The position numbers were made by a program, and so were the translations under genes. A stretch of 39,013 nucleotides of DNA. Origin: Gammaproteobacteria bacterium (GTDB lineage: Bacteria; Pseudomonadota; Gammaproteobacteria; Ga0077554; Ga007554). Position 1 is the stretch's first letter. Every line of letters starts with the position of its first letter. This document shows positions 6,010-39,013 of this stretch, piece by piece. The notes under the pieces are model-generated. The model worked only from the letters and a program-made list of their open reading frames with translations. It was not told the origin of the DNA and searched no databases. Where the stretch lies: NCBI GenBank assembly GCA_005240065.1, contig SBBG01000047.1, forward strand, positions 1-39,013, given 5' to 3'.

Positions 6010-6093
6010 GGTGATACTCCTTGCAAGAAATCAGATTTTGATCGTCCACTATTTTACTATTGGGGCACTTCTAAAAATTCAAATTTTTGCAAA

Positions 6094-6229
6094 TTAACCC
6101 GGCAATCAAATTCATCTGCTTTTCCAGCTTTTCTCCCAGGCGTAGGGTGCGCCGCGCGCACCATCCGCGTGGTGCGTGAGACGCACCCTACGAAACACAG
6201 GGCAATGACGATCTATTTCGCCGGGTCAA
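6094..6229 (+). repeat. hairpin-core repeat element (MITE-like), copy 1
   Basis: A 136-bp element starting TTAACCCGGCAATCAAAT and ending ATTTCGCCGGGTCAA, so its ends are inverted. The 50-bp core at 6142-6191 runs from GTAGGGTGCG to CGCACCCTAC and can fold into a long hairpin with a small internal loop. The same core and arms recur elsewhere in this window. It has no coding capacity. It lies downstream of mnhG and upstream of the cytochrome gene. Calling it mobile is inference from the multiple copies and terminal repeats. Confidence 0.8.
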
Positions 6230-11999: not shown

Positions 12000-12138
12000 T
12001 TAATCCGGCAATCAAATAGATCGTCATACCCTGTTGTTTCGTAGGGTGAGTCTCACGCACCACACGGATGGTGCGCGCGGCGCACCCTACCCTTGGGAGA
12101 AAAGCCGGGAAAACAGATGGATTTGATTGCCGGGTTAA
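12000..12138 (-). repeat. hairpin-core repeat element (MITE-like), copy 2
   Basis: 139 bp with 18-bp terminal inverted repeats (TTAATCCGGCAATCAAAT and ATTTGATTGCCGGGTTAA) that differ at one position. The 50-bp hairpin core lies at 12041-12090, in the opposite orientation to copy 1. This is one of the best-preserved copies. It sits in the divergent gap between mnhAB and the first subtilase gene. The remaining gap, 12139-12357, holds a possible extended -10 box (TGCTAGAAT, 12203-12211) and no ORF that I trust. Confidence 0.85.
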
Positions 12139-12357
12139 TAATTCCCAGGTTTCACACCATCAAACATTACCATGAAAGATAAGGAGAAATCCTCATTGAA
12201 TTTGCTAGAATGCCGCTCAAAAAAATCCTCCTGCAGGGTACACAAACCTTTTCATCATGCGAAGTACATCACATCAACCCTGCGGCGTCCGCCGCATTAA
12301 TAACATATCTTTTTCACTACGCTGGACAGCATCGACAAACCAAGGAGGCAGTATCAC

Positions 12358-18505: not shown

Positions 18506-18509
18506 CTTA

Positions 18510-18643
18510 TTGACCCGGCAACCAAAACCATCTGCTTTTCCAGCTTTTCTCCCACTGCAGGGTGCGCCGCGCGCACCATCGGTAGGGTGCGTGAGACGCA
18601 CCCTACAAAACTGATAAAGAAAGAGACTATTTCGCGGCTTCAA
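18510..18643 (+). repeat. hairpin-core repeat element (MITE-like), copy 3
   Basis: Starts TTGACCCGGCAACCAAAA just after the rrtA stop and runs to about TTTCGCGGCTTCAA. The 50-bp core is at 18557-18606, in the same orientation as copy 1. The right end overlaps the last codons of the convergent small gene. It fills the convergent gap and may form a hairpin in both transcripts. Confidence 0.75.
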
Positions 18644-31257: not shown

Positions 31258-31294
31258 TCATTGATCCTTACAACAGGGAGGTACTTCGATTTTA

Positions 31295-31395
31295 TTAACC
31301 CGGCAATCAAATTCATCCGCTTTTCCAGCTTTTCCCCCACCGTAGGGTGCGCCGCGCGCACCATCCGTGCGGTGCGTAAGACGCACCCTACGAAA
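31295..31395 (+). repeat. hairpin-core repeat element, right end missing (copy 5)
   Basis: Left end TTAACCCGGCAATCAAAT and the left arm are intact, and the 50-bp core is at 31342-31391 in the copy 1 orientation. After the core only a few bases match before unrelated sequence. It lies between the peroxiredoxin gene and the RND adaptor gene. Confidence 0.75.
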
Positions 31396-33091: not shown

Positions 33092-33228
33092 TTAAACCGG
33101 CGATAAAATAGACCGTGATTGCCCTGTGTTTCGTAGGGTGCGTCTCACGCACCGCGCGGATGGTGCGCACGGCGCACCCTACACCGGGAGAAAGCTGGAA
33201 AAGCAGATGAATTTGATTGCCGGGTTAA
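33092..33228 (-). repeat. hairpin-core repeat element (MITE-like), copy 6
   Basis: 137 bp, ends TTAAACCGGCGATAAAAT and ATTTGATTGCCGGGTTAA, hairpin core at 33133-33182 in the copy 2 orientation. It lies between fliK and the kinase gene, whose stop codon is 7 bases from the element's end. Confidence 0.83.
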
Positions 33229-33235
33229 TACCCAC

Positions 33236-36200
33236 CTACCCGCCCGCCGAGGCAACTTCCGCCGGCAACTCCGTTTCACGGCGCAAGACGCTCTCGACAT
33301 GGCCGTATTCCTCGACGATTTTCTCCAGGCGAAATAGCGCATCGGCAGGCATCCCGTCCCGGCAGGATTCTTCCAATCCCTTGCACAGATTCGACAGCGC
33401 CACCGCGCCGAGATTCGCGCTGCTTCCCTTCAGGGTATGCGCCTCGCGCAATAATGCCTGACTCTCCCCGCTCTGCGCCATCTCGCGCATCGCCGCCAAG
33501 CGCTGAGGAACCGCCGCCAGGAACACCTTGATCAAATCAGGAAAACCGGCCCCCATCAGATCACGAAGGGTGTCCAGGGTAGCGTGATCCACCGTAGGCG
33601 GCTTGGGTTCATCGATGGACCCGGACACGATATTCGCGTCGTGCCGGCTCTCGGCCTGAACGCTTTTCGTCTCACCCGCCGGCAGCCAGCGCGCCAGGAT
33701 CTCTCGTAATGTCTCGATCTTGGCGGGTTTGGTCAGATAATCATCCATGCCGCAATCCAGACATTTCTTGCAGACATCTTCCATGGCGTTGGCGGTCATG
33801 GCGATGATCGGAACATGCTCGCCGTCGCCCTCGTTGCCGCGAATCACCGCCGTGGTTTCATAACCGTCCAGCCCGGGCATCTGTAAATCCATGAGAATCA
33901 GGCCATAACGCCGGCCGGCCAGCAGCGCCAGCGCCTCACCGCCATGATTCGCCACATCGGCGGCATACCCCAGCCTTTGCAACATGCCCAACGCGACTTT
34001 CTGGTTCACGACATTGTCTTCAACCACGAGAATACGGGCATCATGCGCAACCAGGGGTTCGGCTTCGACGGGAAACCCCTCTTGCCCGGCACTCGCATCG
34101 CGGGTATCGCTCAGGCAATCGTGGAAATGGGCCAATCGGACCGGCTTCGCCAAACTACCCGCGATGCCCGCCCGCCGCGCCGCTTCGGCATCGGAGACAT
34201 GCCGCCCATAAGACGCCAGCATGATCAGCCGTGTCGTTGCGATGGCCGGATCGTTTTTTATCGTGCGCGGCAACTGCCATTCGGCCATTTCCGGCATATC
34301 CGCATCCAGAATGGCGAGATCGTAAGGCTTGCCGCTCGCCTGAGCGGAGCGCAGCATGGACAGCACTTCTTCGGCGCCGCCAGCGACATCGCTCACCCCG
34401 CCCCAGGCAACGATCTGATGACTGAGGGCGGTGCGGTAGGCGGCATTTTCGTCCGCGACCAGCACCCTGATATCCTTGATGTTCTCCAGTGTGTGATTCA
34501 TGGACGGAGCCACTCCTTCCTGCTTTTGAAAAGGCAGATCGACCCGGAAGGAACTTCCCGCGCCCTGCTCGCTTTCCACGCCGATCTCGCCCCCCATGAG
34601 CTCCGCCAACTGCTTTGAAATGGCAAGACCCAAACCTGTCCCGCCATACTTGCGGGTGATCGACCCGTCAGCCTGGGTGAAGGGCTGAAACAGCAGGCGC
34701 AGCGTTTCGGGCGCAATACCGATGCCGGTGTCGGAGACCTCGAAGCGAAGCGAAACCTGATCCTCCGACTCCCTGACGAGGGTGACACGTATCACAACCT
34801 CACCCCAATCGGTGAATTTGATGGCATTGCCGATGAGATTGGAAAGAATCTGCCGCAAACGCCCGGGGTCACCGAGCAACAACACGGGAACATCGGCGGG
34901 AATCAGCGAGATCAGCTCCAGACCCTTGCCATAGGCGCGCGCGGCGAACAGATGAATCACGTCCTCGACGACTTGCCGCAGATCGAAGCCGATGATTTCC
35001 ACGCGCATCTTCCCGGCCTCGATTTTCGAGAAATCGAGGATGTCATTGATGATGGAGAGCAAGGCTTCGGCCGAGCTGTTCACGGTCTCGGCGAAATCGC
35101 GCTGATCCGGCGTCAACTTCGTTTCGAGCAGCATCCGCGTCATACCGATCACCCCGTTCATCGGCGTGCGTATTTCATGGCTCATGTTGGCGAGAAATTC
35201 CGACTTGAGACGGGCGGCCTCCAGCGCCATGTCCCGCGCCTGTTTCAGATCCTTTTCTATCTGTTTTCGCTCGGTCACGTCGCGCAAAACGCCGACGAAC
35301 AGACGCCTGTTATCAAGCGTCATTTCCGTGATACCGATCTCTACCGGAAAGACGCGGCCATCCCTGTGCTGCGCGGGAATTTCCCGCCCCACGCCAATGA
35401 TCCTGGAAACGCCCGTATTCAGATAATTGGCGAGATATTGCTGGTGTCTGCCCTGATGATCGGGGGTGGCCAGCATGCCGATGTTTCTCCCCACCAATTC
35501 ATCACGGCCATAACCGAAAAGCCGCTCCACGGACGGATTGACCAGCTCGATCAATCCCTGCTCATTGATGATAACAATGCCGTCGATGACATTATTGATA
35601 ATGGCACGCAAGCGTTCCTCGCTCTCCTTCAGGGTCTTCTGCACCCTGGAACGTTGCTCGACCTCGCTTTCCAGCATGATTTTCTGTTGAGTCAAATCCT
35701 CATCCCTCTCCGCCAGGGACAACATCATATTGTTGAATGCCTCGGATATTTTGGATATCTCCCTGGTTCCCGACATTTCCGCGCGCACCTGCGGCCCGAT
35801 GTCCTTGGCATGCTCCATCAGGTCGGCAAGCTCATTCAGCGGCTGGGTCATACGGCCGACGATGAAACGCAGCAACCATAAAACGATAACCACGGCCACC
35901 AGCGTGGTCAAACCTATGCGAACCAAAATATCCAACCGCAACGTATGGAGCGTGTCCTTGCTCATTGCAACATGAACATAGCCCAGAAATTCGGGACGGG
36001 TTTCACCGCTGGCAAAGGGAGATGCCTCATTTCCGGCAGGCGCATTCGAATATACCGGAGCGAGGAAGTGCCACGCGCGGGAGGTTTCACTGGCCAGGAT
36101 GGTCTCACCAGGCAACACAGGATGTAGTGGTGGCTCCCAGTCCGCAACCTCGCCCTTGCGCATAAGCACCTTGCCATTGCCTTCGTAAATGGACACATAG

Positions 36201-36493
36201 CCGATATCGGGAAATGCCAGCGTCGCGGCGGCGGGAATATGGGCATTCTCGGCCGAGCCATACAAAAGTGCGAGCATGCTCTGCCGGGAAAAACCGCTGG
36301 TCACTTGCATACCCTGCCGGATCAGCGCGTCACGGATACCAAGACTCGCCTGCCAGGAAGTGATCAGGGAAGATGCCAGGGCAAGACCGGCGATGACGAA
36401 GGTGAAGGCGATGGATAACTGACGCCGCAAACCCATCGACGGCGGGAAGATCCGCGCCGCCCATCCATCGAGCCATTTCATATTGATCTTCAT
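33236..36493 (-). CDS. hybrid sensor histidine kinase/response regulator (BarA-like architecture)
   Basis: 1085 residues from the ATG at 36493 (MKINMKWLDGW); the track's 38 extra residues read through a repeat element and are unlikely. Order: TM helix (about 28-45), periplasmic sensor region of about 145 residues, TM helix (about 193-212), HAMP, coiled coil, PAS (RLRAIINNVIDGIVIINEQGLIELVNPSVERLFGYG), HisKA with phospho-His about 439 (FLANMSHEIRTPMNGVIGM), HATPase (NLIGNAIKFT, DTGIGI, GTGLGLAI), REC1 (AILDADMPEM), REC2 (LILMDLQMPGLDG) and HPt (EAHTLKGSSANLG). The signal is unknown. It follows a periplasmic binding-protein gene on the same strand. Confidence 0.94.
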   Translation of the reverse strand: MKINMKWLDGWAARIFPPSMGLRRQLSIAFTFVIAGLALASSLITSWQASLGIRDALIRQGMQVTSGFSRQSMLALLYGSAENAHIPAAATLAFPDIGYVSIYEGNGKVLMRKGEVADWEPPLHPVLPGETILASETSRAWHFLAPVYSNAPAGNEASPFASGETRPEFLGYVHVAMSKDTLHTLRLDILVRIGLTTLVAVVIVLWLLRFIVGRMTQPLNELADLMEHAKDIGPQVRAEMSGTREISKISEAFNNMMLSLAERDEDLTQQKIMLESEVEQRSRVQKTLKESEERLRAIINNVIDGIVIINEQGLIELVNPSVERLFGYGRDELVGRNIGMLATPDHQGRHQQYLANYLNTGVSRIIGVGREIPAQHRDGRVFPVEIGITEMTLDNRRLFVGVLRDVTERKQIEKDLKQARDMALEAARLKSEFLANMSHEIRTPMNGVIGMTRMLLETKLTPDQRDFAETVNSSAEALLSIINDILDFSKIEAGKMRVEIIGFDLRQVVEDVIHLFAARAYGKGLELISLIPADVPVLLLGDPGRLRQILSNLIGNAIKFTDWGEVVIRVTLVRESEDQVSLRFEVSDTGIGIAPETLRLLFQPFTQADGSITRKYGGTGLGLAISKQLAELMGGEIGVESEQGAGSSFRVDLPFQKQEGVAPSMNHTLENIKDIRVLVADENAAYRTALSHQIVAWGGVSDVAGGAEEVLSMLRSAQASGKPYDLAILDADMPEMAEWQLPRTIKNDPAIATTRLIMLASYGRHVSDAEAARRAGIAGSLAKPVRLAHFHDCLSDTRDASAGQEGFPVEAEPLVAHDARILVVEDNVVNQKVALGMLQRLGYAADVANHGGEALALLAGRRYGLILMDLQMPGLDGYETTAVIRGNEGDGEHVPIIAMTANAMEDVCKKCLDCGMDDYLTKPAKIETLREILARWLPAGETKSVQAESRHDANIVSGSIDEPKPPTVDHATLDTLRDLMGAGFPDLIKVFLAAVPQRLAAMREMAQSGESQALLREAHTLKGSSANLGAVALSNLCKGLEESCRDGMPADALFRLEKIVEEYGHVESVLRRETELPAEVASAGG

Positions 36494-36500
36494 ACGGAAT

Positions 36501-36667
36501 CTCAGAACCTGTTTACGATCTCGATCAAGGGAAGAGCGAAGCGAAGGGTTCCCAGCGCAAGGCGAAAATGGCCGAAAAAGCGGAGCATACACGGAGTATG
36601 TGAGCATTTTGAGGTCATTTTCAACGCCGTGATGCGCCCTTCAGCGAGACCGTAAACAGGTTCTCAG
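36501..36667. repeat. second MITE-like element with 23-bp terminal inverted repeats
   Basis: CTCAGAACCTGTTTACGATC (plus TCG) at 36501-36523 and its inverted partner at 36645-36667 match at 21 of 23 positions. The 121 bases between them carry no ORF that I trust. The sequence is unrelated to the hairpin-core family. The left end lies just upstream of the kinase ATG and the right end contains the stop codon of the binding-protein gene. Mobility is inferred from structure; no other copy is in this window. Confidence 0.72.
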
Positions 36668-37623
36668 GGGAATACCGCGTCGAAGCTGGCCCGCTTATGC
36701 ACCAGCGCCTGGAGATTGAGATGTTCCGCGGTGCGCAGGTTCACCGCGGCCAGCAAGTCTCCCAGAGGAATCACCCCGGCGCCGCGGCCTTTGGCCAATT
36801 CCAGCGCCATCTTCGCCAGGCTGCGCCCAAGCATGTAATTATCGGGATACAACGCGAACAATGCGCCGCGCTTGACATGCAGGGGATTGCCAGAGAATAC
36901 CACCACCTCGCGCTGCCACGCCTCTTGCAGCACCGCCGGCAAGACAGCGATCTCATCGAGCGTGCCATCCTCCGGCGGCAGCCATAGCGCATCTGCGACG
37001 CCGCTCACCGCGCCGGACACATCCCGGTAAAGACGCGCCGCCGTGCGCAAGTCGCGCGCCTCATGACCGATCAACTCCACACCATGACTTCGCGCCGCCT
37101 CCCGCGCCAGAGCCATCAGCCAGCCGTTCGCTTCGGGATTGAAAATCACATGAACACGCCGCACTTGCGGCGCCAACTGGTGCAAGCGGGAAAACAGGAT
37201 AACGGGATCGGGAACGAGACTGATACCGGCAAAACCCGGCGGAAGGGATTGCGGCGTTATGTTCACCGCACCGATCACCACCGGCCTGCTTGGCCGCAAC
37301 GCCTTCAATGCATCGAAGCCGCGCCGCCCCAGGCCGATCACCGCACCACCCGGTTGACGTTCGAGCTGTTGCTGCAAGGCACTCGTATCGTGCCCGGAGG
37401 GCACGGGATAATTGACCGCCTGACCTCGGATCTGATCCGCGATGCCCGCCATCACCTGATCGAGCACGGCGCGATAAGGTGCCTGAATGTCGGGATACAC
37501 GACGGTGACCGGCGGCAGACTTTCAGCGGAGGCGATGAAAGCGGGAAAGGAACAGAAAAAAATGACGCACAGCCCTATCGAGCGGCGTACAGCGGCATGT
37601 GTTTTCTTTATCGTTGTCGACAT
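36664..37623 (-). CDS. ABC-transporter-type periplasmic substrate-binding protein
   Basis: About 319 residues. A signal peptide (RRSIGLCVIFFCSFPAFIASA) is followed by a two-lobe periplasmic-binding fold: PPVTVVYPDIQAPYRAVLDQVMAGI, GGAVIGLGRRGFDAL, RPVVIGAVNITPQSLP, VRRVHVIFNPEANGWL and the closing GVIPLGDLLAAVNLRTAEHLNL. This resembles the ABC_sub_bind family. The track start 37659 is a GTG with weak GAGG upstream; the ATG at 37623 gives a better signal peptide. No ATPase or permease genes are adjacent; its neighbours are a TonB receptor and a sensor kinase, so it may serve sensing rather than transport. The stop lies in a repeat end. Confidence 0.82.
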   Translation of the reverse strand: MSTTIKKTHAAVRRSIGLCVIFFCSFPAFIASAESLPPVTVVYPDIQAPYRAVLDQVMAGIADQIRGQAVNYPVPSGHDTSALQQQLERQPGGAVIGLGRRGFDALKALRPSRPVVIGAVNITPQSLPPGFAGISLVPDPVILFSRLHQLAPQVRRVHVIFNPEANGWLMALAREAARSHGVELIGHEARDLRTAARLYRDVSGAVSGVADALWLPPEDGTLDEIAVLPAVLQEAWQREVVVFSGNPLHVKRGALFALYPDNYMLGRSLAKMALELAKGRGAGVIPLGDLLAAVNLRTAEHLNLQALVHKRASFDAVFP

Positions 37624-37698
37624 GGGGAAAATCAATAACCATTCCATATAGATCGGCACGCCATCCTCTGGCCATTAGAGAAGCGTCGCCCCGGCCCG

Positions 37699-38007
37699 CA
37701 TGACACACCCTGCGACCGGATACAGCAACCGTAGGGTGCGCCGCGCGCACCGCGATAACATGCCTTGCCGGAAACCACTGCCATGGTGCGTATGACGCAC
37801 CCTGCAAGCCGATACACCACGCACAACCACCGTAGGGTGCGCCGCGCGCACCGCAATAACATGCCTTACCGGAAACCATCACCATGGTGCGTATGACGCA
37901 CCCTACAAGCCGATACACCACGCACAACCACCGTAGGGTGCGCCGCGCGCACCGCGATAACATGCCTCACCGGAAACCACTGCCATGGTGCGTATGACGC
38001 ACCCTAC
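37699..38007. repeat. tandem hairpin array, 101-bp period
   Basis: Three units start with GTAGGGTGCGCCGCGCGCAC at 37731, 37832 and 37933, exactly 101 bases apart, with a decayed partial unit at 37699-37730. Each has a 75-bp core ending CGCACCCTAC (or CTGC) and a 26-bp linker (AAGCCGATACACCACGCACA...). The arms are those of the 50-bp dispersed core, but the loop is 25 bases longer. The last unit runs into the TonB receptor gene, whose TAG stop is part of the repeat. The period is not a multiple of three and the reading frames are not conserved, so it is non-coding. Confidence 0.88.
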
Positions 38008-39013
38008 AACCTGTACCGCACTTCCAGATACACGCTGCGGCCCGGCAGGGGCAGGTCGTAGCGAATGAACCCCGGCGCGGGGCTGGGTTCGCGCGCGTCG
38101 GCGTTCAGCAGGTTGTGGACCAGCAGCGCCACGTCCCACGCGCGCGCTATTTCATTGCGGCGCAGCGTCATGTTCACCAGCGTGTAATCGGACACGGGCG
38201 GGCGGCTGTCGCCCGGCGCGCGCACGCGATCCATGATGTGTTTGACCTGGATGTTCCATTGCCAATCCGGCAGGAAACGCCAGTCCGCCTGGGCATAGAG
38301 CTGCTGGCGTGGCACGGCCGGCACGGCCCGATCCGTGAGAATGTCCGTGGCGCGCTGCCAGACGTAGTTGGCCTTCACATCCAGCGCGCGGCTGGCGGCC
38401 CAGCGCAGCTCCCATTCCAGCCCGTGGCCATCCTGGCCGCCGCTGTTGACCGCCGGGGCGCCGGCGACGAAGCGGATGACATCGCGCATCTCGTAACGAT
38501 AGACATTGAAGCGCGTGGTGACATCGCCCGTGGGCTGGTAATCGAAGGCCATCTCCAGCGTGTCGATGGTCTCCGGCTTGAGGCTGGCATTGCCCCGCGC
38601 CACGGGATTGTTGATGTTGTAGAGTTCGGCGAAGGCCGGGGCGCGGAAGGCGCGGCCGTAGAGCAGCTTCGCCGTCAGGTTGTAGCGGGCCGCCCACACC
38701 AGCGCCAGGCGCGGATTGGTGGTGGAACCGAAATCGGAGTAATGGTCGTAACGCAGCCCGGCGGTGAGATTCCAGTCGGGCAGGACAGACCACTCGTCCT
38801 GCGCCAGGGCATACACCACTTGCCGGCTGTGGGGGCGGATGAACACCAGATTGGGATCATTGCTAACGTCGATCACCGGGCCGATCGGATTGAATTGGGC
38901 ATCGTAATTCTTCGACTCGCGCACCTTGTACAACTCGCCGTTGTTGAAGCCCGTGCCGAGGCGGATGCGGTGGCGGGGGATACCGGTGTACACGCCCGCG
39001 GCGGAGAGGCGGG
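38004..39013 (-). CDS. TonB-dependent outer-membrane receptor, C-terminal part
   Basis: The minus-strand frame is open to the window edge, so the 5' part is missing. About 336 residues of beta-barrel are present. ARYNLTAKLLYGRAFRAPAFAELYNINNPVARGNASLKPETIDTLEMAFDYQPTG is the usual barrel segment with the 'FRAP.f.eLY' and 'NP.LKPE' landmarks of BtuB/siderophore-type receptors. Alternating hydrophobic strands continue to the C-terminal SVYLEVRYRL. It would import a ligand such as a siderophore, vitamin or metal complex; the ligand cannot be told from this part. The stop codon falls in the tandem hairpin array. Confidence 0.92.
   Translation of the reverse strand, partial: RLSAAGVYTGIPRHRIRLGTGFNNGELYKVRESKNYDAQFNPIGPVIDVSNDPNLVFIRPHSRQVVYALAQDEWSVLPDWNLTAGLRYDHYSDFGSTTNPRLALVWAARYNLTAKLLYGRAFRAPAFAELYNINNPVARGNASLKPETIDTLEMAFDYQPTGDVTTRFNVYRYEMRDVIRFVAGAPAVNSGGQDGHGLEWELRWAASRALDVKANYVWQRATDILTDRAVPAVPRQQLYAQADWRFLPDWQWNIQVKHIMDRVRAPGDSRPPVSDYTLVNMTLRRNEIARAWDVALLVHNLLNADAREPSPAPGFIRYDLPLPGRSVYLEVRYRL

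Follow-up and report, generated by a model that had tools for sequence, protein, structure and literature searches.

A tandem array of GTAG-tagged REP dimers at the stop codon of a TonB-dependent receptor gene

Results

A tandem array between a receptor gene and a binding-protein gene

The DNA analyzed, hereafter the window, is a 39,013-nt stretch (contig SBBG01000047.1, positions 1 to 39,013; assembly GCA_005240065.1) of a gammaproteobacterial genome available as a 2.68-Mb draft assembly of 243 contigs, which is the genome searched below. The minus strand of the window encodes a TonB-dependent receptor, an ABC-type substrate-binding protein and a hybrid sensor histidine kinase, and between the first two genes lies an array of three full 101-bp units and a degenerate partial unit (about 3.3 units; minus strand, 37700-38007; Table 1). 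A first-pass annotation had described three near-identical 101-bp units, each with a 75-nt core and a 26-nt linker, between the receptor and binding-protein genes of a same-strand gene group. The units are borne out by Tandem Repeats Finder (37728-38009, period 101, 2.8 copies, 93% matches, score 515), and the gene group is borne out both by the Pfam matches of the receptor and the binding protein on one strand and by relatives that indicate an ancestral operon.

Each core consists of two inverted 21-nt REPs, GTAGGGTGCG-N5-CGCACC, with the GTAG ends outward and a 33-nt spacer between them. The three cores vary at 7 positions, 6 in the spacer and 1 in an arm of unit A, where GTAG has become GCAG; the linkers vary at 0 positions. 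The array accordingly shows the regular, alternating tandem REPs (period 101), identical linkers and near-identical spacers by which BIME-2 elements and modular BIMEs are recognized. The spacer of unit B carries one coupled change, at positions 24 and 48, which represents a single event.

Table 1. Window coordinates of the array, of the gene group around it and of related elements
Feature	Position	Strand	Basis or remarks
TonB-dependent receptor gene, C-terminal part	38004..39013	-	PF00593, 1.4e-41; gene cut by contig end
TAG stop codon of receptor gene	38004..38006	-	TAG portion of the GTAG tag in the outermost REP
Unit C core	37933..38007	-	REP 37987-38007 (-) and REP 37933-37953 (+), 33-nt spacer; both arms exact to REP pattern
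26-nt linker, units B/C	37907..37932	.	identical to units A/B linker
Unit B core	37832..37906	-	REP 37886-37906 (-) and REP 37832-37852 (+), 33-nt spacer; both arms exact to REP pattern
26-nt linker, units A/B	37806..37831	.	sequence comparison of units
Unit A core	37731..37805	-	REP 37785-37805 (-), tag degenerated to GCAG, and REP 37731-37751 (+)
Degenerate partial unit	37700..37730	.	right-arm remnant 37700-37713 and shortened linker 37714-37730; sequence comparison
ABC-type substrate-binding protein gene	36664..37623	-	319 aa from relative-aligned start; PF04392, 1.3e-7; 41-59% identity to relatives in alignment
MITE-like element, 159 bp	36505..36663		binding-protein/kinase junction
Hybrid sensor histidine kinase gene, third of group	33236..36607	-	likely true start, in-frame ATG 36493, inferred from boundary of 159-bp element
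REP dimers with TTATTAACCCGGCAATCAAATTCATCTGCTTTTCCAGCTTTTC flank	6093-6139, 12094-12141, 18507-18555, 31292-31340, 33186-33230		

The REP is dispersed across the genome and is tandemly repeated only at the array

The first-pass annotation had assigned the core arms to a dispersed family, and the genome search agrees: exact 21-nt arms occur 96 + 92 = 188 times, over many contigs, as against 0 occurrences of a reversed control pattern, and the window holds seven REP sites besides the array. Exact arms form 49 head-to-head dimers (GTAG outward) and meet tail to tail at 2 sites, namely the array and one short single pair on contig C88, such that in this exact-arm search the array is the one locus at which the dimer is repeated in tandem. 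Elements of the GTAG REP superfamily carry GTAG beside a short palindrome (stem about 5-13 bp), are dispersed at high copy number and occur mostly as dimers with GTAG outward; the GTAG-GGTGCG-N5-CGCACC element displays all three features. In 94 of the 98 arms of the 49 dimers, the first and last bases of the N5 loop can pair (54 T-A, 40 C-G), and we conclude that each arm by itself is kept palindromic, with a stem of 7 bp and a loop of 3 nt. Both arms have identical loops in only 18 of 49 dimers, which indicates that the large dimer hairpin is imperfectly maintained.

The two REPs are separated by 8 nt in 31 of the 49 dimers and by 7 to 35 nt in the rest. The first-pass annotation had singled out a constant 25-bp insert in the array, that is, a 33-nt spacer instead of the usual 8 nt, as a special feature; given this variation, the spacer loses that distinction and is one value in the spread, at its long end. 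A genome search for other arrays with the 26-nt linker, as the same annotation had proposed, returned none: as part of a full unit, the linker occurs nowhere else in the genome. A literature search with the GTAGGGTGCG string found no paper that appears to concern such a repeat.

Some dispersed dimers carry a conserved flank of about 45 nt (TTATTAACCCGGCAATCAAATTCATCTGCTTTTCCAGCTTTTC) and together with it make up a composite repeat of roughly 100-126 bp. The core of this flank accompanies 13 of 41 distinct dimers among the examined loci, and five dimers with the flank lie in the window (Table 1); the tandem array is without it.

The outermost REP supplies the receptor stop codon at a junction that is REP-free in same-family genomes

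The first-pass annotation had placed the array at the 3' end of the receptor gene. The location is correct, but the array does not merely follow the gene, since the terminal GTAG contains its TAG stop codon; the distance from REP to stop is 0 nt, within the 15 nt that characterize translation-regulating REPs. The receptor frame here ends in LEVRYRL-TAG, and in three same-family genomes it ends in LEVRYSM-TGA with no REP. GTAG REPs often supply the TAG stop codon of flanking ORFs (PMC3733652). Across the examined loci of the genome, GTAG stops end frames of 150 or more codons in 12 of 102 cases, vs. 23 of 403 for control TAGs, an excess of about twofold (p = 0.03) that agrees with this published statement.

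The genus is represented by a single genome. Loci of relatives were found by searching genome contigs with an alignment as query; a single-protein query gave no match. In the relatives the genes for receptor, binding protein and kinase are packed closely together, and the first two have no REP between them; of 55 named loci drawn from diverse proteobacteria, 35 have the receptor immediately upstream of the binding protein. The gap between receptor and binding protein is 380 nt here, vs. 65-68 nt with no REP in the three same-family genomes. We conclude that the receptor/binding-protein group is ancestral, that the array literally separates the two genes, and that its insertion into this old operon took place at a stop codon. 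The remaining stretch on the binding-protein side of the array does not align with relatives, so that the insertion junction on that side has no exact placement. A clear REP is present in one of the 35 adjacent pairs, and a weak 2-mismatch match in one more; one of the named loci, from a Gallionella sp. MAG that is a distant relative, carries a REP dimer of independent origin in the receptor/binding-protein junction (locus L172, 5905-5948). The same-family relative G006 has an inserted 140-aa ORF in the binding-protein/kinase junction (locus L136, 627-1049), which suggests that the junctions of this operon seem to tolerate insertions.

RAYT genes flanked by the array-type REP occur in relatives

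In G006, an intact gene for a REP-associated tyrosine transposase (RAYT), with matches to NF047646 (5.9e-62) and to TnpAREP (PDB 4er8, 4e-50), is directly flanked by the array-type REP. The intact RAYT and further REP clusters (locus L136, 5048-6904) lie upstream of the orthologous receptor, beyond two citryl-CoA-lyase-like genes. The array-type REP also flanks RAYTs in G089 and G107, more distant genomes of the same class; the remaining RAYTs with readable flanking palindromes have other REPs. A RAYT gene flanked by the matching REP, the arrangement that identifies a RAYT-mobilized REP or REPIN, is therefore present in three genomes, and we conclude that the REP family is RAYT-associated. At the place matching that of the G006 RAYT, the relative G004 has a different RAYT.

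The draft assembly of the genome that carries the array contains no intact cognate RAYT. It contains a broken relative on contig C98 (locus L167, about 1071-1667), with 60% identity to the G006 cognate RAYT, one in-frame stop and split frames; a degenerate REP adjoins it. The intact RAYT on contig C227 has a different REP and was rejected as the cognate transposase, being flanked by GTAGGTTGGGCT palindromes. Contig C52 carries a contig-end fragment of another Y1-type gene, without REPs.

Discussion

Identity and origin of the array

The REP-free gaps of the relatives and the dimer architecture of the array lead us to identify it as very probably a tandem REPIN cluster (modular BIME) that belongs to a GTAG-tagged REP family and was inserted into an operon that predates it. 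Although well formed, it is an ordinary representative of a class already known. Comparison with relatives shows the starting point: a compact trio of receptor, binding-protein and kinase genes, the first two without an intervening REP. A REP dimer, mobilized by a RAYT, would then have entered the receptor stop, such that GTAG now provides the TAG. The sequence of the units shows that the dimer, its spacer and a 26-nt flanking segment were finally amplified locally to three-plus units, probably by slippage, unequal exchange or RAYT-driven copying. Unit A and the partial unit have decayed and same-family orthologues lack the array, which favors the reading that the insertion is probably recent and weakly constrained. 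Three observations count against the best explanation: the assembly contains no intact cognate RAYT, the insertion junction on the binding-protein side has no exact placement, and the coincidence of GTAG tags with long-frame stops is only about twofold over control.

The preferred reading agrees with known systems in several respects. The GTAG REP families of Di Nocera 2013 (PMC3733652) share the GTAG tag, a 7-bp stem with a 3-nt loop, a predominance of head-to-head dimers, location at 3' ends and use of the TAG of GTAG as stop, and their clusters consist of dimers that recur in tandem together with adjacent DNA; the likeness to these 24 consensus families is one of described features. The BIME-2 elements and modular BIMEs of Escherichia coli and Stenotrophomonas (PMC2817692) share regular tandem alternating REPs with identical inter-REP segments, but the REP sequence of the array differs and no intact rayt adjoins the array in its own genome. 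Tandem REPIN clusters of Pseudomonas fluorescens SBW25 (PMC3116915) likewise have a REPIN and a flanking segment repeated head to tail, but belong to different REP families and form larger arrays (up to 12 REPs). The REPtron of TnpAREP (PMC8266576; PDB 4er8) is paralleled by the G006 RAYT, a homologue of TnpAREP flanked by the array-type REP, whereas the genome of the array shows just a broken gene for the cognate RAYT.

Possible effects on expression and alternative readings

In the operon transcript, each unit could fold to a hairpin, the first starting at the receptor stop. Such hairpins would be expected to protect the receptor message, which lies upstream, from degradation in the 3'-to-5' direction; they may also delay termination at the receptor stop and reduce expression of the downstream binding protein. 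The transcript strand of the array has a predicted fold of -143 kcal/mol, vs. -126 +/- 5.6 for shuffles (z = -3.0). In E. coli, transcripts that bear REPs are protected from 3' exonucleolytic decay (PMC10100675) and, according to the account of Liang 2015 in PMC12306157, REPs less than 16 nt from a stop codon down-regulate translation; ribosomes can stall where a REP lies within 15 nt of the stop. Because stop-adjacent REPs can stall E. coli ribosomes, effects of the array on mRNA or translation are plausible. That such an effect is measurable and matters to the cell is conceivable, and on balance doubtful; we judge the array to be primarily a mobile-element by-product, with an effect that would be modest and possibly neutral.

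The likeliest of the alternatives casts the array as a 3' regulatory element under selection, whose hairpins at the receptor stop would stall ribosomes or stabilize receptor mRNA and so uncouple the binding-protein gene. We consider this unlikely. The position of the REP at the stop, the published E. coli and decay-protection results, the strong fold, and the independent dimer in the matching junction of the Gallionella MAG are all consistent with it. However, same-family orthologues lack the array, the junction is nearly always REP-free among the adjacent pairs, the array is degenerating at its binding-protein end (GCAG tag, partial unit), and REPs of this family lie at many unrelated genes. 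A dedicated regulatory design is not supported, since the REP occupies well over 100 sites and the array arose by amplifying a single mobile-element dimer in place. The regulatory roles proposed in the first-pass annotation, namely separate expression of the two genes, an RNA-stabilizing 3' end and nucleoid-protein binding, are possible, and are supported as far as position and structure go.

A narrower proposal, which we regard as improbable, is that the array is an acquired translational brake: the stop-fused REP hairpin would stall the terminating ribosome, and the copy number of the units would tune the receptor/binding-protein ratio. If it were true, tandem expansion would act as a contingency-style rheostat in a nutrient-uptake operon.

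It is also quite improbable that the array serves as a binding site for a nucleoid protein or DNA gyrase and acts on intergenic supercoiling. Binding of DNA gyrase or IHF is a trait of BIME-2 elements and modular BIMEs. The tandem alternating REPs recall BIME-2 of E. coli, which binds gyrase (PMC2817692), but the array REP is unrelated to the E. coli Y/Z units beyond GTAG, and one such array in the genome (by exact arms) would suit a general chromosome function poorly. The stable GC-rich hairpins directly after the stop codon might instead be taken for an intrinsic terminator that ends the receptor message, a reading made highly improbable by the lack of a U-tract: a search of 37500-38200 for a GC-rich hairpin followed by a U-tract gave 0 sites, and the same interval contains 0 promoter-like sites for a restart. 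Rfam gave 0 matches above gathering score in the whole window. Although assemblers fail at repeats and the draft has many contigs, an assembly artefact is almost certainly the wrong explanation, since the units differ from one another and can be followed into unique sequence at either end, the partial unit has diverged in its own way, and collapse would lower copy number, not make units.

As a modular BIME or tandem REPIN cluster, the array provides a comparative example of a tandem REPIN array that enters a conserved operon exactly at a stop codon. REP-free same-family genomes are available for comparison, as is a relative in which an intact cognate RAYT precedes the orthologous receptor, and the array makes testable the question whether stop-adjacent REPs are tolerated or selected.

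A second miniature element in the same operon

The MITE-like element at the next junction of the operon (Table 1) has inverted ends GAACCTGTTTACG(A/G)TCTCG and is flanked by a 3-bp direct repeat, TCA (36502-36504 and 36664-36666), one copy of which forms, on the gene strand, the TGA with which the binding-protein gene ends. Consecutive genes of the operon hence each have a miniature element at the stop codon, the REP array at one and the unrelated 159-bp element at the other. Same-family orthologues lack the 159-bp element. Its end sequence has 20 matches in the genome (with up to 2 mismatches), and several copies are full, including one on contig C78 that is flanked by TAA repeats. The TNA-type target suggests, as we infer, an IS5-type transposase. 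Elsewhere, the window encodes two subtilase-family proteases (PF00082; 15386-17701 and 18936-20708), the second with a CBM60 module.
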